Below the pieces are notes generated by a model, which was not told the DNA's origin, did no database searches, and worked only from the letters and a program-made list of their open reading frames with translations. A program made the translations under genes and the position numbers. This document shows, one piece after another, positions 921 through 13,292 of a DNA stretch of 29,692 nt; within the stretch, counting starts at the first letter, position 1; every line of letters starts with the position of its first letter. The stretch comes from a virus. Where the stretch lies: positions 1 to 29,692 of IMG/VR virus record IMGVR_UViG_3300048912_000258; one strand, written 5' to 3'.

Positions 921-934
921 GCGCACGCCTTACG

Positions 935-955
935 TCACATCACCACGCTATGTGA
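935..955. promoter_or_regulatory. Dyad upstream of DNA polymerase, candidate operator
   Basis: TCACAT (935-940) and ATGTGA (950-955) form a perfect inverted repeat with a 9-nt spacer, 16 nt before the polymerase ATG. No clean -35/-10 pair is visible in this gap, so an activator-dependent promoter or a repressor site are both possible. Confidence 0.4.
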
Positions 956-970
956 AGGGTAACACACGCC

Positions 971-2899
971 ATGCTTTGGGGTGATCCACCCGTCCGCCCG
1001 GCCACCGAGGAGTTCGTCAGCTCCGCCGACGGCCGGCAGGGCTGGGAGAACGTCCCGTGTTACGCCGGCGAGCGGGCTGTCCGGCTCGTCGCGTCCGGGT
1101 GGTGGCCGGCCGTCTCGGTGGACATCGAGTCCTTCGGGCTGGGCCGGTACTCGGCACGGCTCAAGTGCGTGTCGTTCTCCGACGGCGAACAGGCCCTCGT
1201 GCTGGACCCCCGCGAGGACAACCAGCGCACCGCGGCGCGCGAGCTGATCGAACGCTCGCCGGAGCTGACCTTCCACAACTCGCCGTTCGACGTGCCGAAC
1301 CTGTCGCGCAACGGCCTGATCAACTTGTCCCATGTGGACAAGATCAACGACACGCTGATTCACTCCCGGCTCGCCGAACCCGACGGCACGGTACGCAAGA
1401 GTCTGGAGCACGTCGGCCACCGCTACCTGGGCACGCCCACCGATGACCATCTCCTCCGCGCGTTCAAGGTGGCCGGGCTCACCAAGGAGCAGGGGTACTA
1501 CCAGTTCGACATCGATCGCATGGTGTACCTGGTGGGCAGCGCATCCGATGCGATCATGACCGCACGCCTACGCGAGGCCACTCGGCAGGCCGCGTACGCC
1601 CGGCTCACCACCGGACACCCCTTCACCGAGAACGGGGTTACCGGGTCGGAGGCGTGGGCGCTGGTCGAGAAGATGCAGCTGTTCAACCGGATCATGCTCC
1701 GCCGTGCCATCCGCGGCCTGCGAGTGGACCTGGAGTTCCTGGACGCCTACCGCGAGTCCAACGCCCAGCGCCTGCACGAGGCGGAGAAGGCGTTGGCGGA
1801 GAACAACATCAGGCCGGGCAACGCGAACGACCTGATCGGGTTCATGACCGACCACAACCTCCTGCCGGAGGACTACCCCCGCACGGCCAAGACCAAGAAA
1901 CCGTCCACAGTGGCTGATCACCTGGAGGCCCTGAACCACCCCGTGGCCCAGGTCTTCGTGCAGCACAAGCAAATCACCAAGGTGGGCGAGGACTACCTCC
2001 AGAAGGTGGTTGATCAGTCCGGAGAGGACGGTCGGGTGTACCCATCCACCAACCCGCTCGCCGCGGTGACCGGTCGTGCGTCCATGGACAACCCGCCCCT
2101 GCACCAGTTCCCCGATGGCGCACGCGGGATCATCCTGGCCGACGAGGGCGACGCGCTCACGTCGACGGACTGGGCGCAGATCGAGCCCGTGGTCATCGCC
2201 AACATCGCCGGGGATCATGACATCGTGGCGGCCTACGAGTCCGGGGAGGTCGACTTCTACCAAGGGGTCGCGCTCGCCGCGGCCCTGGCGCGACCGACGG
2301 CCAAGGTGGTGCTGCTCGCCCAGCTGTACGGGGAGGGCCTGCGCAAGCTCGCCGCGGACCTGGGCCTGCCGGAGACCGAAGAGGACCTCCACAACCTGAT
2401 GCTGGACGGGCCGTCCGCGGAGAGCCTGCGCGCCACCGTCTTCGAGACCCTGCCCCGGACCGCGGACCTCGTCCGGGCGAAGTCCGCCGCGGGGCCCGGG
2501 CAGCGGGAAGGCCTGCTCCGGCGGATCGGTCGGGACTACGGGGTGGTGTTCACCATCTCCGGCCGCATCCTGCCCGTGCCGATGGGGCGGGGCTGGGTGG
2601 ACGAGGAGACCGGAGAGGTCGGCCCGCCGTCACGAGCGGTGCACAAGGCCGTCAACTTCTACGTGCAGGGCTCCGCGGCGGACGTCCTCATGGAGACCGT
2701 GATCGCCGGGGACGAGGCGGGCCTGTCGGACACGCTGTACCTCACGATGCACGACGAGCTGATCACTTCGACCGACGCGGCGGAGGAGTGGGGAAGGATC
2801 ATGAGGAAACCCCCGGAGCGCTTGTGCCACTTGGCAAAACGTGTCCCTCTACTGAGGACAGACCGGGCAGACGTGGGTGAGAGGTGGAAAAAGGTATGA
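971..2899 (+). CDS. polA: Family A DNA polymerase with N-terminal 3'-5' exonuclease domain, 642 aa
   Basis: Replicates the phage DNA. The N-terminal exonuclease fold shows ExoI DIE (D51, E53), ExoII NxxFD (N103, D107) and ExoIII SASDA (D193). The usual Tyr four residues before the last Asp is Gly189, so proofreading may be weak. Polymerase motif A is STDWAQIE (D400, E405), motif B is RPTAK..YG (R441, K445, Y453) and motif C is HDE (594-596). There is no 5' nuclease domain, as is usual for phage enzymes of this size. The C-terminus RTDRADVGERW looks natural, so the protein is complete. No clear ribosome site precedes the ATG (AAGGG is 13 nt away). The downstream HNH gene overlaps its stop by ATGA. 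Confidence 0.97.
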   Translation: MLWGDPPVRPATEEFVSSADGRQGWENVPCYAGERAVRLVASGWWPAVSVDIESFGLGRYSARLKCVSFSDGEQALVLDPREDNQRTAARELIERSPELTFHNSPFDVPNLSRNGLINLSHVDKINDTLIHSRLAEPDGTVRKSLEHVGHRYLGTPTDDHLLRAFKVAGLTKEQGYYQFDIDRMVYLVGSASDAIMTARLREATRQAAYARLTTGHPFTENGVTGSEAWALVEKMQLFNRIMLRRAIRGLRVDLEFLDAYRESNAQRLHEAEKALAENNIRPGNANDLIGFMTDHNLLPEDYPRTAKTKKPSTVADHLEALNHPVAQVFVQHKQITKVGEDYLQKVVDQSGEDGRVYPSTNPLAAVTGRASMDNPPLHQFPDGARGIILADEGDALTSTDWAQIEPVVIANIAGDHDIVAAYESGEVDFYQGVALAAALARPTAKVVLLAQLYGEGLRKLAADLGLPETEEDLHNLMLDGPSAESLRATVFETLPRTADLVRAKSAAGPGQREGLLRRIGRDYGVVFTISGRILPVPMGRGWVDEETGEVGPPSRAVHKAVNFYVQGSAADVLMETVIAGDEAGLSDTLYLTMHDELITSTDAAEEWGRIMRKPPERLCHLAKRVPLLRTDRADVGERWKKV

Positions 2900-3411
2900 G
2901 GTTAAAGTCCAACGTATCGCAGTCCGTCCGAGACCGCGTCCTTAGTGCACAATGCTGCACCTATTGTGGTGATCGGGTTGGTCCTTGGGAAGTGGACCAC
3001 ACAGTGCCTTTAAGCCGGGGGGGCACAAACTCAGAGGATAACTTGGCTTGCTGCTGCGTGGCGTGTAATAGCCAAAAGAGGGCTTTTCTATTGCATGAAT
3101 GGATATTGTTCCGCACTACCAACGGGATGCCATGGCCCCCTATCGCCTCACATCCCACTGAGCTTGTGCACTTCCCTGACATGTGCTCCGGTAATCCTCG
3201 TAAGCACCCAAGCTATGATGATCACCCCAATGAGTGTGAAAAAATTAACGTGCCCTATACCATGGAATGGGACGGTGCGGGGTACCTGTGCTATTACCGT
3301 TGTGAGGCCTGTCGATCAAAGTGGACCTGTTGGAATGGGTTTATTCACGGATATTTCAATGACTGCCTTTGCACGTATTGCCGCATGGCGCGATTGGAGG
3401 TCCAGTCATGA
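2896..3411 (+). CDS. HNH endonuclease with C-terminal zinc ribbon, 171 aa, probably a free-standing homing endonuclease
   Basis: Residues 20-62 form a classic HNH nuclease: CxxC (21-24), WEVDH (D34, H35), TNSEDNL (N49) and CxxCN (54-58). A second Cys-rich module follows near the C-terminus (CEACRSKWTCW and CLCTYC), probably a zinc ribbon used in DNA contact. The ATG at 2896 is chosen because it gives the ATGA overlap with the polymerase stop that is common in this window; a GTG at 2884 is possible. Base composition differs sharply from its neighbours (bases 3061-3120 are 26/60 G+C), so it is a recent arrival. Its position directly behind the polymerase gene suggests that gene may be its homing target, which is inference. 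Confidence 0.9.
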   Translation: MRLKSNVSQSVRDRVLSAQCCTYCGDRVGPWEVDHTVPLSRGGTNSEDNLACCCVACNSQKRAFLLHEWILFRTTNGMPWPPIASHPTELVHFPDMCSGNPRKHPSYDDHPNECEKINVPYTMEWDGAGYLCYYRCEACRSKWTCWNGFIHGYFNDCLCTYCRMARLEVQS

Positions 3412-3521
3412 CCACGCTATGGATCATCATCGCGGCCACGCTGACCTGGTTGGTGATGTTCGTTCTGGGGTCGTGGATCGGGTACGCGATCGGCGAGCTG
3501 GGACGGAGACACGACCGATGA
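3408..3521 (+). CDS. Single-pass membrane peptide, 37 aa
   Basis: The ATG at 3408 overlaps the HNH stop (ATGA) and has GGAGG about 8 nt upstream. The product is almost entirely one membrane helix (LWIIIAATLTWLVMFVLGSW), followed by a short basic tail ending RRHDR, which predicts an inward C-terminus. Its own stop overlaps the next ATG, again as ATGA, so it is translationally coupled on both sides. Function is unknown; small membrane peptides among phage early genes are common, and some alter host membrane proteins or energetics, but nothing in the sequence says so here. Confidence 0.75.
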   Translation: MTTLWIIIAATLTWLVMFVLGSWIGYAIGELGRRHDR

Positions 3522-3901
3522 CCCGCGGGGTACGCGAGCCGTGGACCGTCGACGACGCGGCACGCCTGACCGACGCGCTGGGCGAGCTGCTCGCCGCGGA
3601 AGAGGAACTCCGACGGCGCAAGCTCGTCATCGTGGAGCAGGCCCTGCGGACCACGGTCGGGTGCTGCTCGACCTGCCACCGGCCGCTGATCTCGCGCCGG
3701 CTCTGGGACCTACTTCCCAGTAGCGTCCGCGAGACGGGCACCTTGGCCCGCCGGCACAACGCCACGACGTGCTTCACCCACTACATCGACCGGTACCGGG
3801 CACGGCGCAAGCTCATGGACCCGGCCCGGCTCGCCGCCCTCCGGGCGGCCGTCGGGTTCAACCCGGCCGCCAACTACGACGAGATGGAAGAGAGCGCGTG
3901 A
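3518..3901 (+). CDS. Hypothetical protein with a putative zinc site, 127 aa
   Basis: The ATG at 3518 overlaps the stop of the membrane peptide. Residues 10-45 form a strongly charged helix (LTDALGELLAAEEELRRRK). A CCSTCH cluster near residue 50 and a later TCFTHY near residue 90 could together bind one zinc ion. The remainder is basic. The family is unrecognised. It lies in the replication operon just ahead of the prim-pol/helicase, so a DNA-linked accessory role is plausible but unproven. Confidence 0.75.
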   Translation: MTRGVREPWTVDDAARLTDALGELLAAEEELRRRKLVIVEQALRTTVGCCSTCHRPLISRRLWDLLPSSVRETGTLARRHNATTCFTHYIDRYRARRKLMDPARLAALRAAVGFNPAANYDEMEESA

Positions 3902-3949
3902 GCGGCCCCATGCGCTGACGTCGTGCCAAGAACAAGGAGGCCTGACCCC

Positions 3950-6361
3950 GTGTTTGCTCACGACACCTTTACGGCGATCTTCGGAGCCGCGCGTCCCGGC
4001 GAGCTGGAGATCCTGGCCGGGCTCGTGCGCGCCGCGCTGCGCGAGGGCTACGTCATCGTCCTGAACGAGCCCGGCACCAAGAAGCCCCTGTGCCCGCTCT
4101 CAGCGAACCAGCGCAAGGCCGCCGACCGGATGGCCCAGGACCTGGCCGCGGAGCGGGGAGAGCGCGGTGCGGCCGCCCGACGGCACGCGTGCGGCATCGC
4201 ACACGCCCTCACCGAGAAGGACGCGGCCAAGATCACCGGGCTGCTCAACCGGCTCACCAAGATCTACGGCGCCCCGCCCAACATCGGGCTGGACCCCGGC
4301 CGCTCCCGGCTCGTGTGCGCCGACATGGACACCGCCGGCCAGCGGGACGCGTTCCTGGCCGCGTGGCAGCACGAGGACCCCGGCGCCGCACCGACTCCGG
4401 GCACGCTCTACACCGTGCGCTCGCCGGGGCAGCGCTCGCCGGACGGCACGTGGGCGCACAGCGACGGCGGGCACACGTGGTTCACCCTGCCCGCCGGGGT
4501 GGTCCTGCCCTCCGACGGTGGCCGCGGCGTGCTCACCGACGAGGGCGGCTGGTCGCTGATCTGGTCCGGGCTCCAGGTCCTCGTGCCGCCCTCGGTGCGC
4601 GAGGAAGGCCCCTACGCCGTGGTCGGCATGCCGCGGCCGGCGCCGGCCTGGCTGCTCCAGCGCATCGAGACGGAGGTCGTCCTGCGCACCGAGCGTGAAC
4701 GGCTCCGGCTGGAGCGGCGCGCGGAGCGGGTGTCGAGCGGGGAGGTGGACCCCGTCGACGCGTGGTCGGCGGAGACCACCTGGACGGAGCTGTTGGAGGC
4801 CCGCGGGTGGTCGGCGACCGGGCGGGTGGACACGTGCTCGTGCCCGACCTGGACCGCACCCGGGCCGCACGGCTCGCCCAAGTCCGCGACGGCGCACGAC
4901 GAGGGGTGTGTCAAGTTCGACTCCGACGACGGTCACGCGCCTCTGCACGTCTGGACGGACAACCCGCCGGACTATCTGGCCGGCGCCCCCCGCACGCTGA
5001 CCAAGCTCACCCACGAGGCCTACGCGGATTACGAGGGCAGCGAGTCCGCCGCGGTGGTGGGGCTGGGCCTGGCCGTGCGCGAGAACGGCCCCATGGTCGT
5101 CGACAACCCCTTCGATCTGCCCAGTCCACAGCCTGTGCATGAGTTGTCCACAGGCTCGGAGACAGAGCACGGCCCCGCCGGGGACAAGCCAGCGGGGCCG
5201 GACGACTTCGCGATGCCCGGTACCAAGGACTCACCCGACGAGTCGGAGCCTGCGGGGCTCGCCGAAGTCGCTAGCGAGCCTAGCGAGGATGTCAAGCCCG
5301 CGCAACCCGACCCGGTCAAGCCCGGCTCCCTGCTCGCCTACGACTCCTCGGACCTGGACGACCTGCCCGATCCCGACCCACTGGTGTACGGCCTGCTCGA
5401 TCGGGGCAGCGTCGCGATCCTGTCCGGCAAGTTCGGCACGTACAAGTCGTTCCTGGCGCTGGACTGGGCCTGTCACGTGGCCCTGGGGCGGGCCTGGCAG
5501 GACCACGACGTCGACCGGGCCGTGCCCGTGGTCTACATCGCGGCGGAGGGCCAGGTCGGGATCAAGCGGCGCGTACGGGGGTGGCGCCAGCGGCACACCG
5601 GCGGGGCGCATCTTCCCGCCGGGGCGCTGACCGTGATCCCGCAGCGCGTGGTGCTGGAGACGGACAAGGACGGCAAGGCCACCGCGCACCTGCGCGAGCT
5701 GGTTGAGCTGGTGCGCGAGCGCGGCGCCGGGCTGGTCGTGTTCGACACGCTGTCCAAGAGCCGGGGCAAGGCGGAGGAGAACAGCAACAGCGACATGGCC
5801 CAGGTCATGGCCCTGGTGATCGAGCTGTGCCGGGCGACGGCGGCCACGGTGCTGCTGGTCGCGCACACGGGCTACTCCGGCGAGCACACCCGGGGCGGAT
5901 CGAGTCAGGAAGACGATGCGGACTCGGTGTTCGTGATCAAGTTCGAGGACCCGAAGAACGAGGACCGCGGCCCGGACAACCGGCGGGTGCTGCACCACCG
6001 CAAGTCCAAGGACGGCCTGCTCTCCCCGCCCCGGGTGCTCGCTCCGCGGGTGGAGGAGATCGGGCAGGACGACCACGGCAGGCCGGTGACGACGCTGACC
6101 CTGTCCGCGGACCCGTTCGAGATGGACGAGCCGCGTACGGAGGTCGTCAGCTTGGAGAGAGTGGTGGCGTGGCTGGAGCACCACGAGGCACCTAAGGGGC
6201 TGTCTCAGCGCAAGGCACTCCCGTGGATTCGAGGTCACGAGGCCTACGGAGAGATCAAGACGAGAGCCGAGATGCTGACCCTGGCCTACCGCGAATACAC
6301 CACTGATTCCGGCGAGCGGGAATCAGAAGACCCCGGAATCACCCCTGACCAGGAAGAATAA
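3950..6361 (+). CDS. Prim-pol (AEP primase-polymerase) fused to a RecA-fold replicative helicase, 803 aa
   Basis: Makes primers and unwinds DNA at the phage fork. The GTG at 3950 follows AAGGAGG by 9 nt; an earlier in-frame GTG (3923) has no ribosome site. Residues ~20-240 match an archaeo-eukaryotic primase fold: the metal-binding DxD is in VCADMDT (D125, D127) and the second motif is GGHTWF (H175). A CSC...HDEGC patch at 296-320 may bind zinc. An acidic, Pro-rich linker (~385-460) leads to a RepA/RecA-like ATPase with Walker A GKFGTYKS (493-500), Walker B VVFDT (596-600) and LLVAHT (635-640). The last ~100 residues are probably a winged-helix tail. The stop is embedded in the GGAATCA repeat field. 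Confidence 0.92.
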   Translation: MFAHDTFTAIFGAARPGELEILAGLVRAALREGYVIVLNEPGTKKPLCPLSANQRKAADRMAQDLAAERGERGAAARRHACGIAHALTEKDAAKITGLLNRLTKIYGAPPNIGLDPGRSRLVCADMDTAGQRDAFLAAWQHEDPGAAPTPGTLYTVRSPGQRSPDGTWAHSDGGHTWFTLPAGVVLPSDGGRGVLTDEGGWSLIWSGLQVLVPPSVREEGPYAVVGMPRPAPAWLLQRIETEVVLRTERERLRLERRAERVSSGEVDPVDAWSAETTWTELLEARGWSATGRVDTCSCPTWTAPGPHGSPKSATAHDEGCVKFDSDDGHAPLHVWTDNPPDYLAGAPRTLTKLTHEAYADYEGSESAAVVGLGLAVRENGPMVVDNPFDLPSPQPVHELSTGSETEHGPAGDKPAGPDDFAMPGTKDSPDESEPAGLAEVASEPSEDVKPAQPDPVKPGSLLAYDSSDLDDLPDPDPLVYGLLDRGSVAILSGKFGTYKSFLALDWACHVALGRAWQDHDVDRAVPVVYIAAEGQVGIKRRVRGWRQRHTGGAHLPAGALTVIPQRVVLETDKDGKATAHLRELVELVRERGAGLVVFDTLSKSRGKAEENSNSDMAQVMALVIELCRATAATVLLVAHTGYSGEHTRGGSSQEDDADSVFVIKFEDPKNEDRGPDNRRVLHHRKSKDGLLSPPRVLAPRVEEIGQDDHGRPVTTLTLSADPFEMDEPRTEVVSLERVVAWLEHHEAPKGLSQRKALPWIRGHEAYGEIKTRAEMLTLAYREYTTDSGERESEDPGITPDQEE

Positions 6362-6503
6362 GTGATTCCCACCCCGGAATCACTTCGGAATCAGGGTGAC
6401 CCCAGGGGACCAGGACCCGACCCCAAGGGAGGGTCCCGGGGACCACGCGCGAGGGGGTGATTCCCGATTCCCGGCCCTTAGGGGAATCAGGAATCGGGAA
6501 TCA
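6304..6503. repeat. Field of eleven GGAATC(A/G) repeats in both orientations, candidate replication origin or binding-site cluster
   Basis: GGAATCA or GGAATCG starts at 6319, 6335, 6376, 6387, 6483, 6490 and 6497; the reverse complement starts at 6304, 6363, 6458 and 6465. The copies build two perfect hairpins: a 10-bp stem at 6360-6385 spanning the helicase stop codon, and a 16-bp stem at 6456-6505 with an 18-nt loop. Three copies lie in the 3' coding end of the helicase gene and the rest in the 186-bp gap before RusA. No comparable cluster was noticed elsewhere. Iterons beside a primase-helicase gene suggest an origin; repressor sites or a terminator pair are alternatives. Confidence 0.75.
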
Positions 6504-6505
6504 CC
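6456..6505. repeat. Large perfect hairpin (16-bp stem)
   Basis: GGTGATTCCCGATTCC (6456-6471) is the exact reverse complement of 6490-6505; the loop (6472-6489) carries one further GGAATCA. No T-run follows (CTAAACGG), so it is not a standard intrinsic terminator. Confidence 0.85.
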
Positions 6506-6547
6506 CTAAACGGACACCAACCAAGATCAACATATGAGGAGCGCGAG

Positions 6548-7105
6548 ATGGCTGACATCAAGATCGACAATCCGAACCCGAACGGCCCCGCCTACGGGCT
6601 GGGAGGGGCCGTGCCGCCGGGGTGCCGGCCACCGAGCGGGGAGAGCCTGAGCGCGTTCGTGCCGGGCCGTCCGGCGCCCCAGGGGTCCAAGACCTACCTG
6701 GGCCGCCGTGGCGGCCGTGGAGTGCTCGTGGAGTCCAGCAAGGCCGTCAAGCCGTGGCGTGCCGACGTGCGCGAGGCGTTCATGTGGGAAGGACTGCCGA
6801 AAGGAGCGTTCGCTCCGGCCGTGCCCCTGGTGGTCATGATCGTGTTCGTCATGCCCCGGCCGGCCGCAACGCCGAAGACGCGAGCCACCCCACCGGCGGT
6901 CAAGCGGCCCGACCTGGACAAGCTGGGGCGTGCCGTGCTGGACGCGCTCACGAGCGCCGGGGTCTACGCCGATGACTCCCAGGTCGTCACCCTGCTCACG
7001 CACAAGCGGATCGCGGAGCCGGGAGAGGCCACGGGTGCCATGATCCACATCGAGCGTGCAGACGTGTCCACCTTTGACACACCGACCAGCAGGCACGTAG
7101 GGTGA
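6548..7105 (+). CDS. rusA: RusA-type Holliday junction resolvase, 185 aa
   Basis: Cuts four-way junctions made during replication and recombination, giving DNA fit for packaging. Residues ~35-170 carry the RusA pattern: a PxPQGSK strand, then KRPDLDKLGRAVLDAL (D122, D124, K125, D132), and VYADDSQV (D142, D143), which holds the metal-binding Asp residues, followed by THKR (K153). The first 30 residues (Pro/Gly-rich) are an extension not usual for the family. The ATG at 6548 follows GAGGAG. The end of the gene contains a promoter for the next gene, and the 3' end overlaps it. Confidence 0.93.
   Translation: MADIKIDNPNPNGPAYGLGGAVPPGCRPPSGESLSAFVPGRPAPQGSKTYLGRRGGRGVLVESSKAVKPWRADVREAFMWEGLPKGAFAPAVPLVVMIVFVMPRPAATPKTRATPPAVKRPDLDKLGRAVLDALTSAGVYADDSQVVTLLTHKRIAEPGEATGAMIHIERADVSTFDTPTSRHVG
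7074..7103 (+). promoter_or_regulatory. Plus-strand promoter for the packaging block, apparently leaderless
   Basis: TTGACA (7074-7079), an 18-bp spacer and TAGGGT (7098-7103) lie in the last codons of rusA. Seven nt separate the -10 from the ATG at 7111, so transcription should begin at or next to the start codon. This is the same geometry as the four minus-strand leaderless promoters, but it lacks their conserved spacer. Confidence 0.65.
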
Positions 7106-7110
7106 TGACC

Positions 7111-7665
7111 ATGTCCGCGAGACGGGACGTGGCCCCCGGAGGCCACACGCACAGGCAGTCAGGGACCGACGCCGGCCGAGTGGAGGCCCGTCGCAGAGCC
7201 TACGAACTCCGCCTCGGTGGCCGCACCCACCGACAGATCTCCGAGGACCTCGGTGTGTCCACCGGCACGGTTCACAACTACCTCCGCGAGGAGATCAGTG
7301 AGCGCCTCGACCCGCTCAAGGACCACTACCTCCAGATGGAACTGGACCGGCTCGACCACCTTCAGCAGGTCGCGTTGAAGCTGATCGAGCACCCCGGCAT
7401 GGTCGTCGAGGACCACGAGGGCAAGACCCACGTCATCCTGGACCAGAAGAAGATCGAGTCCGGTTTCGACCGCGCGCTGAAGGTGTCCGAGTCCCGGCGC
7501 AAGCTGCTCGGACTCGACGCCCCGGTTCGCGTGCAGGGCGACTTCTCCGTCACCGAGACCACCCAGGAGGACCTGGAGCTCCAGGAGCTGATCCGGGAGG
7601 CCAAGGCCAAGGCCGCGGCCTCCGCGGAGGCGCTCCGGGCCACCAGTCCGGAAGCGAGCTGGTGA
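7111..7665 (+). CDS. terS: Helix-turn-helix protein, probable small terminase subunit, 184 aa
   Basis: Residues 24-60 form a homeodomain-like HTH (EARRRAYELRLGGRTHRQIS followed by EDLGVSTGTVHNYL), the fold by which small terminases recognise packaging sites. A long helical region follows (LQMELDRLDHLQQVALKLI) and then ESRRKLLGLDAPVRV, a motif common in actinophage small terminases before an acidic helical tail. The ATG at 7111 is chosen because the promoter places the transcript 5' end there; GTG 7102 and ATG 7105 would lie in or beside the -10. It precedes the large terminase with several genes between. A transcription regulator is the alternative. Confidence 0.65.
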   Translation: MSARRDVAPGGHTHRQSGTDAGRVEARRRAYELRLGGRTHRQISEDLGVSTGTVHNYLREEISERLDPLKDHYLQMELDRLDHLQQVALKLIEHPGMVVEDHEGKTHVILDQKKIESGFDRALKVSESRRKLLGLDAPVRVQGDFSVTETTQEDLELQELIREAKAKAAASAEALRATSPEASW

Positions 7666-8030
7666 CCGCCATGACTTCGCGGTTCTGCTGTGACAACCCC
7701 GAGCCGGGCGGCGACCCTGGCGAGCCGGACGAGAACGTCGTCTGCTGCGTCAATTGCGGCGAGGACATGGACGACGACATGATCTACCGCTGGTCGACCC
7801 AGCGTGATGCCGAGCCTGCCCCGGTCCGTGTCGTTCTGGAGACGGCGCACGGCAGGATCCTCGTCGGCATGGGCTTGCTCGCCGGTGGTATCACCGGGCC
7901 GACCTGGGCCCTGAACATGCCGGGCGTGCCCCACCTCCTGCGTGCCCTGGCCAACCAGCACGAGGACGCGATCACCTCCGGACCGCCGGCGACATGGCTG
8001 GAGGACGACGAGCATGATGACGGAGAGTGA
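7662..8030 (+). CDS. Hypothetical Cys-rich protein, 122 aa
   Basis: The GTG at 7662 overlaps the upstream stop (GTGA) and has GGAAG about 8-10 nt before it; ATG 7671 is a possible alternative. The N-terminal third has CC near residue 9 and CCVNCGEDMDDD near residues 28-39, enough for one zinc site. The middle (VRVVLETAHGRILVGMGLLAGG) is a beta-like hydrophobic stretch rather than a clear membrane helix, and the C-terminus is acidic. The family is unrecognised. It is coupled to the small terminase gene and to the next Cys-rich gene, so a role in packaging or head assembly is possible. Confidence 0.75.
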   Translation: MTAMTSRFCCDNPEPGGDPGEPDENVVCCVNCGEDMDDDMIYRWSTQRDAEPAPVRVVLETAHGRILVGMGLLAGGITGPTWALNMPGVPHLLRALANQHEDAITSGPPATWLEDDEHDDGE

Positions 8031-8205
8031 GATCCTGCGGGTCACCCTGGCCCGGCGGATCATGGCCGGCTCGCTCGTGACCAAGCTCGTCCGGCCGTGC
8101 TGGGTCTGCGCGAACGTCGGCCACGCCCACGTCGCCGGCGGATGCCATGTCGAGGGCTGCCCGTGTTGCGGCCGGTACCCCTTCGGTCAACCGGTGTGGC
8201 CATGA
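8014..8205 (+). CDS. Small zinc-ribbon-like protein, 63 aa
   Basis: The ATG at 8014 has GGAGGA 8 nt upstream and lies inside the end of the previous gene (17-nt overlap in another frame). The first 28 residues are a basic helix; the rest has CWVCANVGHAH followed by a GCHVEGCPCCGRYPF cluster, six cysteines and several histidines that could bind one or two zinc ions. The stop overlaps the MuF-like gene start as ATGA. Function is unknown. Small zinc proteins next to minor head genes may be nucleic-acid-binding or structural. Confidence 0.75.
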   Translation: MMTESEILRVTLARRIMAGSLVTKLVRPCWVCANVGHAHVAGGCHVEGCPCCGRYPFGQPVWP

Positions 8206-9110
8206 TCGAGCACACCGACCAGCTCCTGAACCTGATCGAGCGGCGCGTCACCGCGACGAACGCGGACCTGCTCGCCCTGCTCGATCGGGTCAGGCATCGG
8301 TTGGCCCAGCTCGCCGTGGACCCGGCCAAGCTCGCCGGCCCCGCCCTGACCGCGATCGTGGACCAGATCCTCGCGGAGATGGCGGTCGCGGCCCGGCGAG
8401 CCGTCCGAGCGGGGAGCGACAAGGACCGCGTTGGCGAGTTGCTCAAGGAGCAGGCCACCCGCGTTTCGGGCCTGAGTCGCTCTCTGCGGGCCGCGGAGCG
8501 TCCGACACTGGCCAAGGCCCTCCTGGTGCTCCAGGCGGCGCACACGCTCGCCTCCGGGCTCAAGGGCACCCTGTCCGACGCCGCGGTGCAGGGCCAGACC
8601 AAGGCGCGGCGCTCCCAGCTCGCCGACCAAGGGCGAGCCGTGGTGCTCATGTGGGTGCCGGAGCGCGACGCCTGTGCGCGCTGCCTGCGCTACGCGGGCC
8701 TGCGCTTGCTGCGTCCCACCGACGCGTTCCCCGCCGGCCTGTCCTACGATCCCCAGCAGGCGGACTCGGGTGCCGGCGACATACCGGGTCCGCCCCTTCA
8801 CCCGCACTGCCGGTGCGAGCTCCAGGTCGTGAGCAAGGGTGACAGCGAGGACGCGAGCCAGGCTCTCCAGCGCGAGGCGGAGCGCGCCGTGCTCAAGGGG
8901 TGGGCCCTGGCCAGTGAGGGCGCCGCGTCGCGCGAGCGTGCCGCCAGGGCCCTGCTCGCGGCCGGGGCCAGTGTGCCGAAGTCGGTCAAGGCGGAGGCGT
9001 TGAAACGTTTGAAGGAGGGCGAGCGCTTCACGCGCCCCGTGCCGTCCGGGCACGAGCCGAAGGCGAAGCGGGACTACCTGGCCTCGTACTCGGGGGTGTA
9101 CCGCCGGTGA
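8202..9110 (+). CDS. MuF-like minor head protein, 302 aa
   Basis: The ATG at 8202 overlaps the previous stop (ATGA); a longer GTG frame from 8097 is rejected. Residues 1-140 are long amphipathic helices. The MuF core follows: MWVPERDACARCLRYAG, then PPLHPHCRCEL, with a CxxC ... HxHCxC pattern that is probably a zinc site. MuF-family proteins sit on or inside the portal region of the head, in few copies, and may be ejected with DNA. The C-terminal ~80 residues are basic and helical and show no toxin domain. It is placed before the large terminase, whereas MuF genes usually follow portal. Confidence 0.75.
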   Translation: MIEHTDQLLNLIERRVTATNADLLALLDRVRHRLAQLAVDPAKLAGPALTAIVDQILAEMAVAARRAVRAGSDKDRVGELLKEQATRVSGLSRSLRAAERPTLAKALLVLQAAHTLASGLKGTLSDAAVQGQTKARRSQLADQGRAVVLMWVPERDACARCLRYAGLRLLRPTDAFPAGLSYDPQQADSGAGDIPGPPLHPHCRCELQVVSKGDSEDASQALQREAERAVLKGWALASEGAASRERAARALLAAGASVPKSVKAEALKRLKEGERFTRPVPSGHEPKAKRDYLASYSGVYRR

Positions 9111-9115
9111 GCCCC

Positions 9116-9280
9116 TCAGCTCCAGCACGGGCCGTCCGGGTGCCAGACGGTGGTGGTCAGCTCGTCGGTGTCCGGCTTGAGCGGGACGTAGGCGCCTTTG
9201 AGCGGCACTCCCAGGAACACGTCAAAGGCGCCGGGGGCGGTCAGGTCGGTGAGGTTCACGAAGTCTTCGTCGTTCAGCAT
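9116..9280 (-). CDS. Counter-strand small protein A, 54 aa, leaderless
   Basis: Reads against all surrounding genes. The ATG at 9280 lies 6 nt after the CATACT -10 of its promoter, so the mRNA should begin at the start codon; there is no ribosome site. The product is acidic, with VNLTDLTAPGAFDVFLGV and a C-terminal TTVWHPDGPCWS; no membrane segment and no known domain. The stop lies 6 nt from the convergent stop of the MuF-like gene, and no strong terminator separates them. It is one of four genes in this window under nearly identical promoters. Confidence 0.75.
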   Translation of the reverse strand: MLNDEDFVNLTDLTAPGAFDVFLGVPLKGAYVPLKPDTDELTTTVWHPDGPCWS

Positions 9281-9286
9281 GCGATC

Positions 9287-9316
9287 AGTATGACATACAT
9301 GGACATAGGTGGTCAA
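9287..9316 (-). promoter_or_regulatory. Conserved leaderless promoter P1
   Basis: On the minus strand: TTGACC (9311-9316), 18-bp spacer ending TGTCCATGTATGT, CATACT (9287-9292), then GATCGC and the ATG at 9280. The spacer and -10 are almost identical in P2, P3 and P4. Confidence 0.85.
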
Positions 9317-9331
9317 CCCCCAGCACGAAAG

Positions 9332-9355
9332 AGCAGGCCCCCGAGGGGGCCTGCT
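9332..9355 (-). terminator. Terminator hairpin after counter-strand gene B
   Basis: An 11-bp perfect stem AGCAGGCCCCC / GGGGGCCTGCT with a 2-nt centre, read on the minus strand into CTTTCG. It lies between the stop of gene B (9362) and the -35 of P1 (9316), separating the two transcripts. The T-tract is weak, which is common in actinobacteria. It could also stop plus-strand read-through. Confidence 0.75.
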
Positions 9356-9361
9356 GGTCGG

Positions 9362-9898: not shown

Positions 9899-9928
9899 AG
9901 TATGACATACATGGACAGACCATGACAA
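9899..9928 (-). promoter_or_regulatory. Conserved leaderless promoter P3, overlapping the terminase start codon
   Basis: On the minus strand: TTGTCA (9923-9928), 18-bp spacer ending TGTCCATGTATGT, CATACT (9899-9904), AGGTGC, ATG at 9892. The -35 occupies bases 2-7 of the terL reading frame (ATG at 9922). Confidence 0.85.
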
Positions 9929-11487
9929 CCCCCAGTCTGGTCGCTGACCCCTACGACCCGACCGCTGACGTTGACACGTTTCAACTTGATCTTTACCTGG
10001 CCCAGTTCGACGAGCGACTCCTCGCTCACCCGGAGGGCCGCCGCGCCCTGACCTACACCGACCCCCTCCTGTTCGCCCTCGTCTACCTCCGGGACCACCT
10101 CCGGTCCGAGGAGACCGGCGACGAGGTCACGATCGCCGACATGCACCTGTCCTGGGCGCGGCAGGCCCGGCAGTGGCTCCTGCCCATCCGGTACCCGGCC
10201 CAGTACCGGGCTGCGGAGATCGCGCCCCGCAACACCGGCAAGACCACCTGGTGGTTCCTGATCATCCCGATGTGGCTCGCCGCGCACGGACACAGCAAGT
10301 TCATCGGCGCGTTCGCCGACTCCGGTCCCCAGGCGGAGATGCACCTCCAGACGTTCAAACAGGAGCTGGACCGCAACGCCCTGCTGCGCAAGGACTTCCC
10401 CACCCTGTGCCAGGCCAAGGAGCGCACCGACGTCAAGCGCCGCCTGAGCGACAACAAGAAGATGACCATCCAGGCCAACGACTTCGTGTTCGCGGCCAAG
10501 GGCGTCGACGCGGGCAACCTCGGTATGAAGGTGGGCAAGCGGCGCCCCGACACGATCATCCTGGACGATGTCGAACCCGGCGAAGAGGTCTACTCCAGTT
10601 ACCAGGCCGGGCAACGCCTGATCGCCCTGACCGACTCGATCATGCCGCTGAACGTGTACGCCCGCGTCGTGCTGTGCGGCACGACGACCATGGTGGGCTC
10701 GATCGTGCACCAGCTCGTCAAGAGCGAGCTGGAGCCAGGGGAGGAGCCGGCCGCCTGGATCGCGGAGGAAAACTTCCAGGTCCACTACCACCCGCCGATC
10801 GTCACCCGGCCCGACGGCACCGAGCGGTCCTGCTGGCCGGCGCGCTGGTCCCTGGAGTTCCTGGAGTCCATCCGCCACACCCGGCAGTACCAGAAGAACT
10901 ACCGCAACCTGCCTGCCGGTGTGGGCGACTACTGGTCCACCGAGGACCTGGAGCAGGCACGCGAGCGCGGCGCCGCGGTCACCGGGATCACCCGGGGCGT
11001 GCTCTCGATCGACCCGGCCACCACGAGCAGGACCACATCCGACCGGACGGCCTTTGCCGTGGTGACCGTCTCGCCCATGCACAAGACCGCGGTACTGGAG
11101 GCGTGCCGAGCCGTCATCCTCCCGCCGGCCGCCTGCCGGCGCATCGCCCTCCAGTACCTGGAGCTGCACCCGGAGATCCGGAAGATCCTGATCGAGTGCA
11201 ACCAGGGCGGGGAGACGTGGCTGTCCGTCTACCACGACATGCCCGTGCCGGTGGAGCTGATCCCGCAGAGCGAGCCCAAACCCGTCCGGGCCGCCCGGCT
11301 CCTCAACCACACTCAGCGCAAGCACTTCGCCCTGAGAGGCAGGCAACTCCCGTTCGAGGAAGAGGCCCTGAGCTTCCCCCGGGGTGCCTACGATGACGTC
11401 CTGGACGCGGTGGGCACGGGCGCGGACTACGTGCTCAGGACCCGGCGCCGTCCCGCCCAGTCCACCAACCAGTCCTATGTGGCGTAG
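9922..11487 (+). CDS. terL: Large terminase subunit, 521 aa
   Basis: ATP-driven motor and nuclease that packages DNA through the portal. The ATPase domain has an arginine-containing Walker A, APRNTGKTT (101-109), and Walker B TIILDDVE (211-218), with LCGTTT (251-256) as the coupling motif. The RNase H-like nuclease begins at VLSIDPATT (D364) and ends with YDDVLDAV near residue 493, supplying the later acidic residues. No ribosome site is seen before the ATG at 9922 and no plus-strand promoter was found immediately upstream. Read-through from the 7074 promoter past three counter-strand genes is the simplest source of mRNA. Confidence 0.95.
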   Translation: MTTPSLVADPYDPTADVDTFQLDLYLAQFDERLLAHPEGRRALTYTDPLLFALVYLRDHLRSEETGDEVTIADMHLSWARQARQWLLPIRYPAQYRAAEIAPRNTGKTTWWFLIIPMWLAAHGHSKFIGAFADSGPQAEMHLQTFKQELDRNALLRKDFPTLCQAKERTDVKRRLSDNKKMTIQANDFVFAAKGVDAGNLGMKVGKRRPDTIILDDVEPGEEVYSSYQAGQRLIALTDSIMPLNVYARVVLCGTTTMVGSIVHQLVKSELEPGEEPAAWIAEENFQVHYHPPIVTRPDGTERSCWPARWSLEFLESIRHTRQYQKNYRNLPAGVGDYWSTEDLEQARERGAAVTGITRGVLSIDPATTSRTTSDRTAFAVVTVSPMHKTAVLEACRAVILPPAACRRIALQYLELHPEIRKILIECNQGGETWLSVYHDMPVPVELIPQSEPKPVRAARLLNHTQRKHFALRGRQLPFEEEALSFPRGAYDDVLDAVGTGADYVLRTRRRPAQSTNQSYVA

Positions 11488-11497
11488 GGAGCGCGAG

Positions 11498-11782
11498 ATG
11501 GCGGATCGTTTGTGCGGTAAGCGGATGTACGCCTACAAGCATTGGTCGTGCCAGAAGAAACCACACCTTTGGGGGCGACACAGATTCAATAATTACACGT
11601 CTGGGCGTATCCCTCACGTGTGGAAGGTGAAGGCTCTGCGGGTCTTGTGGAGAGGTAATCGTCGATTGAAGAGAATACCCGGTAAGGGAGGGGGCTTGTT
11701 CCGTTACAGGCAAGCCCTTTTCCCTTGTCGGTTTGATCCACTTCCTGTCACCCATACGCCTAAGGAGCGGGGCCGTGGCTGA
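11498..11782 (+). CDS. Small basic protein with a possible zinc knuckle, 94 aa
   Basis: The ATG at 11498 follows GGGAG, in a start context (GCGCGAGATGGC) shared with rusA and the scaffold gene. The N-terminus has a C-x11-C pair (C6, C18) followed by HLWGRHRF, resembling short Cys/His motifs in small actinophage proteins; the rest is very basic (VKALRVLWRGNRRLKRIPGK). Composition is lower in GC than flanking genes (bases 11581-11640 are 31/60 G+C), which suggests acquisition. A terminator-like hairpin lies in its 3' third. The end overlaps the portal start by 8 nt. Function is unknown. Confidence 0.65.
   Translation: MADRLCGKRMYAYKHWSCQKKPHLWGRHRFNNYTSGRIPHVWKVKALRVLWRGNRRLKRIPGKGGGLFRYRQALFPCRFDPLPVTHTPKERGRG
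11692..11721 (+). terminator. Terminator-like hairpin inside the small basic gene
   Basis: GGGCTTG (11692-11698) pairs with CAAGCCC (11711-11717) across a 12-nt loop and is followed by TTTT. It has the form of a modest intrinsic terminator between terminase and portal but lies within a reading frame, so it may attenuate rather than stop transcription. Confidence 0.4.
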
Positions 11783-13292
11783 TTCACCGGACCTCACCCT
11801 GGCGGTCACGGAGATCACCGAACACCGTGACGCCTACATCACCGCGGACCTGATGTACCGCAACAAGGTGGAGGAGATCTTCGCATCTTCCAACAAAATC
11901 GTGGCTCTGCTCCAGGAAGCGAGCAAGCACTTCCGCACCAACCTCGCGGCCACGCCCGTCGATGCAGTCCTTAATGGACTGGAAATCACCTCCGTCACGG
12001 TCCCCAACCAGCAGGGCGAGCCGGACGACAAGCTGACCCAGGTCTTCAAGGACAAGGTGTGGGACGCTAACCAACTTGACCTCTACATGCCCGACTGGCT
12101 CCGGGAGATCGGCAAGGAGGGCGACGCCTACCTGTTCGTCTGGGATGGTGACGATGAGGCGTCGTGCGAGATCCACATGCGCAAGCCGGTCGGGGCGCGC
12201 ATGTTCTACAACGAGGAGAACCCCCGCGAGAAGTCGTTCTTCGCCTTCACCTGGAAAGAGCGCAACCCCAAGCGCATCCGGATCAACCTCGTCTACGCGG
12301 ACCGGGTCGAGAAGTACGTCAGCACCGCGAAGGACCCCAAGGCGGACAAGGACTTCACCCCGTTTGAAGAGGACGGCGACGGGGGTTGGCCGGTCTTCCA
12401 CGACTACGGCGAGATCCCCGCGTTCCACGGCCGGTCCGATCACCCCTACGGCGTGCCGGATCACTACAACGCCTACGGCCCCCAGAACCAACTCAACAAG
12501 ATCATCGCAACCCAAATGGGCTCGATGGACTACGTGGGGTTCCCCCAGCGCGCCGCGCTCCAGGACTCCCCCGTGGACGACGACGGGGACCTGTGGGACG
12601 AGGACGACAACGAGGCGGCCGGCGGCACGGGCATCGGGGCGCCCCAACAGAACAAGCTCGTTTCGCACCCCGGCTCGCTGTGGGAGCTGAAGAACACGCG
12701 CTCGCTGGTACAGCTCCCAGCCGCGGAGGCGGATAACTTCCTCAAGCCGATCGACAAGGCGGCCCAGCTCATGTCCGCCGCGACGGGCACGCCCATCCGG
12801 TTCTTCAACGGCACCCAGGGTCAGCAGCCCTCCGGCGCGAGCCTGCGCGAGGACGACGCACGCCTCACCGCTCGCCGCTCCATGCGCATGCTGCTCGCCG
12901 GCGCGACGCTGCGCGACGCCTTCACCTTCGCGATGCGCAAGGTGCTGGGCTACGCGGACTGCCCTGAAGTCGTGATCAACTGGAAGCCCGCCCAGCGCGC
13001 GGAACTCCCTGACGAGTGGGAGGTGATCCAGGCCAAGCAAGCGGCAGGCGTGCCGCGAGACGTGACCCTGTTGGAGGCGGGCTACACCCCGTCACAGATC
13101 CAAGACTGGAACGACGCGGCCCCCGATCCCGGTGAGGGCCTGCTCGCCAGGGTCGAGTTGCTGGAGCGGTTGGCCGGCGCCGCGGAGAAGCTCGCCGGGG
13201 CCGCTGGCCTCGGTGCCCTGGACATGAAGCTGGTCCAGGAACTGATGGCCGGGTTCCTCCCGGCCCCCGATGATGGAGGAAACAATGGGTGA
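11775..13292 (+). CDS. Portal protein, 505 aa
   Basis: Forms the dodecameric ring at the unique head vertex through which DNA enters and leaves. The GTG at 11775 follows AAGGAG by 8-9 nt. Length and position directly after terminase fit a phage portal. Recognisable features are the N-terminal helix region, an acidic insert near residues 275-290 (DDDGDLWDEDDNE), and a C-terminal half with GTPIRFFNGTQGQQPSGASLR followed by a long helix (ARRSMRMLLAGATLRDAFTF) typical of the stem/crown transition in SPP1/HK97-type portals. A coiled C-terminal tail (LLARVELLERLAGAAEKLAG) ends it. The next gene begins inside its last codons. Confidence 0.9.
   Translation: MADSPDLTLAVTEITEHRDAYITADLMYRNKVEEIFASSNKIVALLQEASKHFRTNLAATPVDAVLNGLEITSVTVPNQQGEPDDKLTQVFKDKVWDANQLDLYMPDWLREIGKEGDAYLFVWDGDDEASCEIHMRKPVGARMFYNEENPREKSFFAFTWKERNPKRIRINLVYADRVEKYVSTAKDPKADKDFTPFEEDGDGGWPVFHDYGEIPAFHGRSDHPYGVPDHYNAYGPQNQLNKIIATQMGSMDYVGFPQRAALQDSPVDDDGDLWDEDDNEAAGGTGIGAPQQNKLVSHPGSLWELKNTRSLVQLPAAEADNFLKPIDKAAQLMSAATGTPIRFFNGTQGQQPSGASLREDDARLTARRSMRMLLAGATLRDAFTFAMRKVLGYADCPEVVINWKPAQRAELPDEWEVIQAKQAAGVPRDVTLLEAGYTPSQIQDWNDAAPDPGEGLLARVELLERLAGAAEKLAGAAGLGALDMKLVQELMAGFLPAPDDGGNNG

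Follow-up and report, generated by a model that had tools for sequence, protein, structure and literature searches.

In the window, that is, the whole stretch of 29,692 bases of the virus record IMGVR_UViG_3300048912_000258 (a fragment), eleven copies of the word GGAATC(A/G) lie within 200 bp directly behind the gene of a prim-pol/helicase protein. We consider it likely that this array serves an actinobacterial phage as its replication origin and that the GGAATC(A/G) repeats are iterons for an initiator, most likely the upstream prim-pol/RepA-like helicase or a domain of it. An iteron-like origin adjoining the prim-pol/helicase had been proposed from the letters of the window (hereafter the sequence-only reading), and comparison with relatives supports it as the reading that apparently fits best.

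The window encodes a DNA polymerase A (971-2899), an HNH nuclease (2884-3411), the prim-pol/helicase (3923..6361, + strand), a RusA-like Holliday junction resolvase (6548..7105, + strand; PF05866, 5.3e-13), which forms the downstream border of the slot that holds the array, a large terminase (9922-11487) and a portal protein (11733-13292), together with head and tail genes. Judged from sequence, this gene content is that of a tailed phage, a soil phage whose host is probably an actinobacterium (the group being taken from the relatives of the helicase and of RusA). Upstream of the DNA polymerase lies the gene of a small excisionase/MerR-like HTH protein (582-881), which may be a candidate regulator or an alternative reader of the repeats. 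Positions 923-9358 are 100% identical to IMGVR_UViG_3300045391_003633 (36,449 bp; L004), a second record of the same virus, and the loci L004, L009 and L067, with 100% DNA identity to the window virus, were left out as independent loci.

The prim-pol/helicase (812 aa) belongs to phrog_906 (7.7e-129) and combines a prim-pol domain (Pfam PF09250, 1.6e-8) with a RepA-like AAA_25 helicase core of the RecA fold (PF13481, 1.1e-37). Its closest solved relative is RepA of RSF1010, a replicative helicase (1g8y, E 2.8e-22), and the top Foldseek matches were 1nlf, 1olo and 1g8y (AlphaFold2 model: mean pLDDT 76, pTM 0.44).

Exact matches to GGAATCR confirmed the eleven copies in 6304-6503 and their occurrence in both orientations (nine GGAATCA and two GGAATCG; seven on the + and four on the - strand). 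They fall into a left set of six (6304-, 6319+, 6335+, 6363-, 6376+ and 6387+; 6304..6393), which is kept in the relative L010, and a right set of five (6458-, 6465-, 6483+, 6490+ and 6497+; 6458..6503), separated by a G+C-rich gap without an AT-rich melting region (6394..6457). The first three copies of the left set lie inside the helicase coding end, in agreement with the sequence-only reading. The clustering is not due to chance, as had been argued from base composition: all nine GGAATCA copies of the window lie within the 200 bp, a second-order Markov model expects 2.1 per whole window, and the Poisson probability, taken over all positions, is about 1e-18. The word is likewise restricted to the array in the 36.4-kb contig of the same virus (9 of 9 copies), and in a 37.7-kb relative contig 10 of 10 copies lie within about 270 bp.

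We consider it unlikely that the array is instead an operator, bound by a repressor or activator of the phage that regulates RusA and the genes beyond it, or the helicase gene. Inverted repeats would suit a dimeric regulator, and there is a gene for at least one small HTH protein of this kind (the excisionase/MerR-like protein of 582-881), but a promoter scan of 5900-7000 found no sigma-70-like promoter, copies reach into the coding end, 6-14 copies are many for one operator, and such arrays trail helicase genes in loci with differing downstream sequence. Regulation of the stoperator type would furthermore scatter the copies genome-wide, whereas GGAATCA is confined to the array, with no copy elsewhere in the window or in the 36.4-kb contig. 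What is found, many short copies at one place that adjoins a replication gene, is the general mark of an iteron origin.

The repeats are more conserved than their surroundings. In L010, an independent relative (helicase protein 66% identical), the word occurs ten times and the layout is kept, and between it and the window 72 of the 77 repeat columns are identical (94%) vs 95 of the 169 spacer columns (56%; p 5.5e-10). The last 19 helicase codons, which hold repeats, show 82% DNA identity, the preceding 81 codons 55%. The GGAATCR repeats, including those in the coding end, therefore appear to be held by selection on the DNA, even within the gene.

Several copies are arranged as dyads. The right set builds a perfect inverted repeat with an 18-nt loop (6455..6506; 6455-6471 with 6490-6506, 100% paired), so that the perfect stem of the sequence-only reading is real, its length being 17 bp and not 16 bp. 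Two inverted copies of the left set form a perfect 10-bp hairpin (6360..6385; 6360-6369/6376-6385), also real, although it does not span the stop codon of the helicase gene (TAA, 6359-6361) but starts within it; two further inverted copies form an imperfect hairpin at 6303..6326. The 17-bp and 10-bp stems had been described as nested, which does not hold, because they stand side by side (6360-6385 vs 6455-6506). Folded as single strands, the two main hairpins are far more stable than shuffled sequences (z -5.9 and -7.5); an Rfam search gave no match. The stems consist of the inverted repeats themselves, and the inverted layout is kept in the window, L010 and L011 despite the different word of L011, which also has a layout similar to that of the 17-bp inverted repeat.

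At the centre of the right dyad lies the palindrome CCCTTAGGG (6475..6483), the sole CCCTWAGGG in the 36-kb contig of the virus. In many slots the inverted repeats enclose a short palindrome of G+C with AT at its centre (e.g., CCCTATAGGG in L010, CCCTAAGGG in L011 and CCCCTTTAGGGG in L082), and a centre of the form CCTW(1-3)AGG was found in 11 of 43 array slots (22 strand-hits vs 0.6 expected). Under a broader definition, the stem rule of which misses the window's own short centre, a G+C hairpin with an AT centre occurs in 22 of 43 array slots vs 31 of 540 control segments and 1 of 29 slots of the Evaa-type phages (see below); the control segments of this count are largely coding, so the centre could also act as a terminator. 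That the hairpins as a whole are transcription terminators and the repeats their by-product is extremely improbable. Strong stem-loops directly 3' of a gene, the G+C hairpin centre in particular, could terminate transcription, and one terminator-like site was predicted (- strand, 6360-6385), but shuffles yield 0.7 such sites by chance, and terminators need neither a 7-mer shared by eleven copies nor a word conserved above its spacers.

The slot behind the helicase gene was then compared among relatives. Searching with a profile built from five prim-pol/helicase proteins yielded 45 viral loci and 13 genome-contig loci (a scan of the genome contigs with the window protein alone as query gave no match, while the alignment query did yield loci), and genomes at the family level (301) and at the class level (395) supplied further slot loci. 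For each locus, the 7-mer with the highest count in 300 bp was determined on both strands in the region that starts 350 before the helicase stop and ends 450 after it. At least six copies of one 7-mer were present in 36 of the 75 loci outside the Evaa-type group vs 6 of the 510 other segments of the same loci, and per-locus shuffles rarely rose above 4-5 copies. In the Evaa-type phages, i.e., Mycobacterium and Gordonia phages with related prim-pol/helicases, none of the 29 loci reached six copies (L006-L008, L016, L017, L020, L022, L024-L031, L033, L035-L039, L042-L045, L048, L049, L051 and L053); the helicase type as such thus needs no array. Since Evaa-type and array-type loci were divided by inspection after the scores had been seen, the contrast between the two groups is descriptive, and the comparison with the control segments is unaffected.

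The search for repeats at the same place in relatives gave a stronger result than expected from the sequence-only reading: the position of the array is shared and its word is lineage-specific. Even in distant relatives an array lies directly 3' of a RepA-like helicase gene, often fused to a prim-pol domain, with another word, and nearly all loci use both orientations. There are about thirty words in all (GGAATCA, CGGACA, TGACAT, AGTTCGG, GCGTCAC, ACCTATG, GATCGCA, GAATCTC, GGGGGAC, CACCGAC, GCCGGAA, CGTCCCA, ATCCGCG, CAGATGC, CAGACAC, ACCTCGC and others). Arrays also occur behind AAA_25 helicases in which no prim-pol domain was detected (L083, L087, L105 and L120), and behind a prim-pol protein with another helicase domain (DUF3987, L059). 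The gap between the repeat sets is, by eye, AT-rich in some relatives (L018, L059, L060 and L064).

This distribution bears on two further alternatives. One is that the words are single-strand template sites at which the prim-pol starts its primers and not double-strand binding sites; the PrimPol of phage NrS-1 starts at TTTGGTTA, which is thought to fix its initiation site (PMC8718748). The arrays with words of their own behind AAA_25 helicases without a detected prim-pol domain of their own (L083, L105, L120 and L087) argue against it, although a separate prim-pol gene may exist there, and we rate it as very unlikely. Just as improbable is a parS-like role of the repeats, as a partition site bound by a ParB-type protein and not as an origin. 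Mycobacteriophages with RepA/parS regions are similar in that an actinobacterial phage has repeats near a replication gene: their parS comprises eight copies of an 8-bp motif, and Miko and Rachaly have a parS of five direct repeats immediately downstream of repA (PMC7157519). However, these parS copies are direct repeats, whereas those of the window occur in both orientations and form dyads; arrays trail the helicase gene in many loci; and a scan of 20 proteins of the window, which is a fragment, detected neither ParA nor ParB. The mycobacteriophage RepA is also another type of protein, a plasmid-type initiator with an N-terminal HTH, no repeats were found at those origins, and the repeats described there are the partition sites (PMC7157519). 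The next question is what would read the repeats.

In the clade L055/L058/L032/L034/L056/L062 the helicase cores are 77-99% identical and the word has been replaced throughout (words include GACCTATG, GGCCTATG, GTTCTAAG, GATCTTTG and GATTCTTG); many of the repeats occupy aligned positions. As these alignments indicate, the copies within one array have changed in the same direction, in concert, as would be expected of sites that must all follow the changes of a protein reading them. In four of these slots (L055, L058, L032 and L034) CTACC(A/T)GGGG is conserved beside the changed repeats.

The candidate reader is the C-terminal tail of the helicase protein, in particular a helical domain of residues 744-792 (coding part 6152..6298, + strand) that is predicted by AlphaFold2 as a helical segment with low to middling pLDDT; a relative, L105, has an HTH_IclR match in its C-terminal part. 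Co-evolution of site and protein, suggested earlier because repeats lie inside the coding end, fits the lineage-specific words at one place, but the covariation of C-terminal domain and word is not decisive. Pairs with the same word have C-terminal identities of 47-77% (core 61-87%) and pairs with different words 46-64% (core 77-92%), so that a simple covariation of the two was set aside. The window and L010 share the word although their C-terminal domains are only 38% identical, which leaves a simple word-to-domain match unsupported. The C-termini of array-type proteins are somewhat more diverged than those of the Evaa type at equal core identity (62 vs 73% in the 80s bin), a pattern that relaxed constraint would give as well.

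Origins next to their replication genes are known from several systems. In phage P4, the alpha protein unites primase, helicase and C-terminal iteron binding, and the short repeats lie in two clusters; it differs from the window in its primase and helicase families and in that the origin (ori1) and crr are apart. The window resembles the oriV of RSF1010/IncQ plasmids in its RepA-type helicase and its combination of iterons and hairpins, the IncQ iterons being longer. RSF1010 has RepC to bind the iterons, RepA to unwind and RepB' to make primers at stem-loops (as summarised in PMC4234260); iteron binder, helicase and primase are thus three proteins, unlike the window, where primase and helicase form one polypeptide. 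The archaeal plasmid pRN1 has an essential stem-loop just downstream of its prim-pol/helicase gene (ORF904), conserved in structure and not in sequence (PMC4234260), and the window likewise has stem-loops behind the gene of a prim-pol/helicase; pRN1 differs in its SF3 helicase and its single 100-nt stem-loop, with no iteron array described (PMC4234260). A parallel in position, as pRN1 is, are the PICIs/SaPIs, the origin of which lies directly 3' of the primase/helicase (rep) gene with two sets of short iterons, as in the window; the repeat sequence varies between islands and the rep-ori module supports plasmid replication when tested (PMC6092414). An AT-rich region is said always to lie between the iteron sets of PICI origins (PMC6092414), whereas the gap of the window is G+C-rich, and the window differs further in its RecA-fold, RepA-like (AAA_25) helicase with prim-pol and in that it belongs to a phage which encodes terminase and head proteins itself. 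Candidate mycobacterial PICIs have been reported (PMC10654092), for which we found no account of their origins.

By analogy with RSF1010, the PICIs and pRN1, the array might work as follows. The two iteron sets would gather several initiator molecules; the helicase protein, bound to the iterons that follow its gene, would assemble or load as a hexamer and open the DNA at the dyad; the inverted copies and the G+C hairpin centre (CCCTTAGGG) could be extruded as stem-loops; and these may act as priming sites for the prim-pol, as ssiA and ssiB do for the RSF1010 primase. That the window has no AT-rich melting region between its two repeat sets counts against the origin reading, and the cumulative GC skew, proposed earlier as a check, showed no turning point at 6.4 kb in the window, which is a fragment. 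The matches listed from the plasmid collection included no close plasmid of actinobacteria that carries this module, and thus gave no independent proof of autonomy.

An iteron origin adjoining its replication gene is of a known kind. We found no paper describing these arrays in the open-access literature, and as far as that literature tells, what is new is how widely they occur among actinobacterial phages and elements that have RepA-like helicases, the centre of the hairpin, and that their word has been rewritten repeatedly. Since initiator and origin must match, it is puzzling how a replicon can survive the change of its word at ten or more sites; one slot with about thirty words, and a clade with close cores and a replaced word, make this question testable by swaps of arrays and tails. 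It is possible, although we put this forward only tentatively, that one origin architecture is common to a large class of phages and integrated elements of actinobacteria: a short G+C hairpin flanked by iteron dyads and placed immediately 3' of the gene for a RepA-like helicase. Its word would be rewritten repeatedly and in concert, possibly via competition of replicons in the same host, and words and helicase tails would form a learnable natural recognition code. The series of arrays would document a joint change of the start site and the protein that would read it. The array pattern is a simple search handle for origins in actinobacterial phages and satellites, and the arrays may be a source of small, mutually compatible replicons for actinobacterial hosts.

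Some other short elements were seen in or near the slots. Dense short-repeat arrays that do not directly follow the matched helicase gene are present in L077 (249-427, GGCTGGA x9), L113 (413-550, GCGTCCC x6) and L125 (2-177, CGCGACC x7). Within the gap of the window lies GACCACGCGCGAGGG (6441..6455, + strand), present too in the slot of L062 (Gordonia), and CGCGCGAG has 10 copies in the 43 slots vs 2.3 expected; a GC-alternating element (GACCACGCGCGAGGG or CGAGAGGTCGCGCGCG) is common to the slots of the window, L062, L055, L056, L032, L059 and L060 despite their different words. Finally, AAGATCAA occurs at 6524-6531 of the window, near the ribosome site of the next gene, and also in L010, L011, L015, L019, L023 and L052; with 8 copies in 7 of the 43 array slots vs 1.0 expected, it is possibly another conserved signal.
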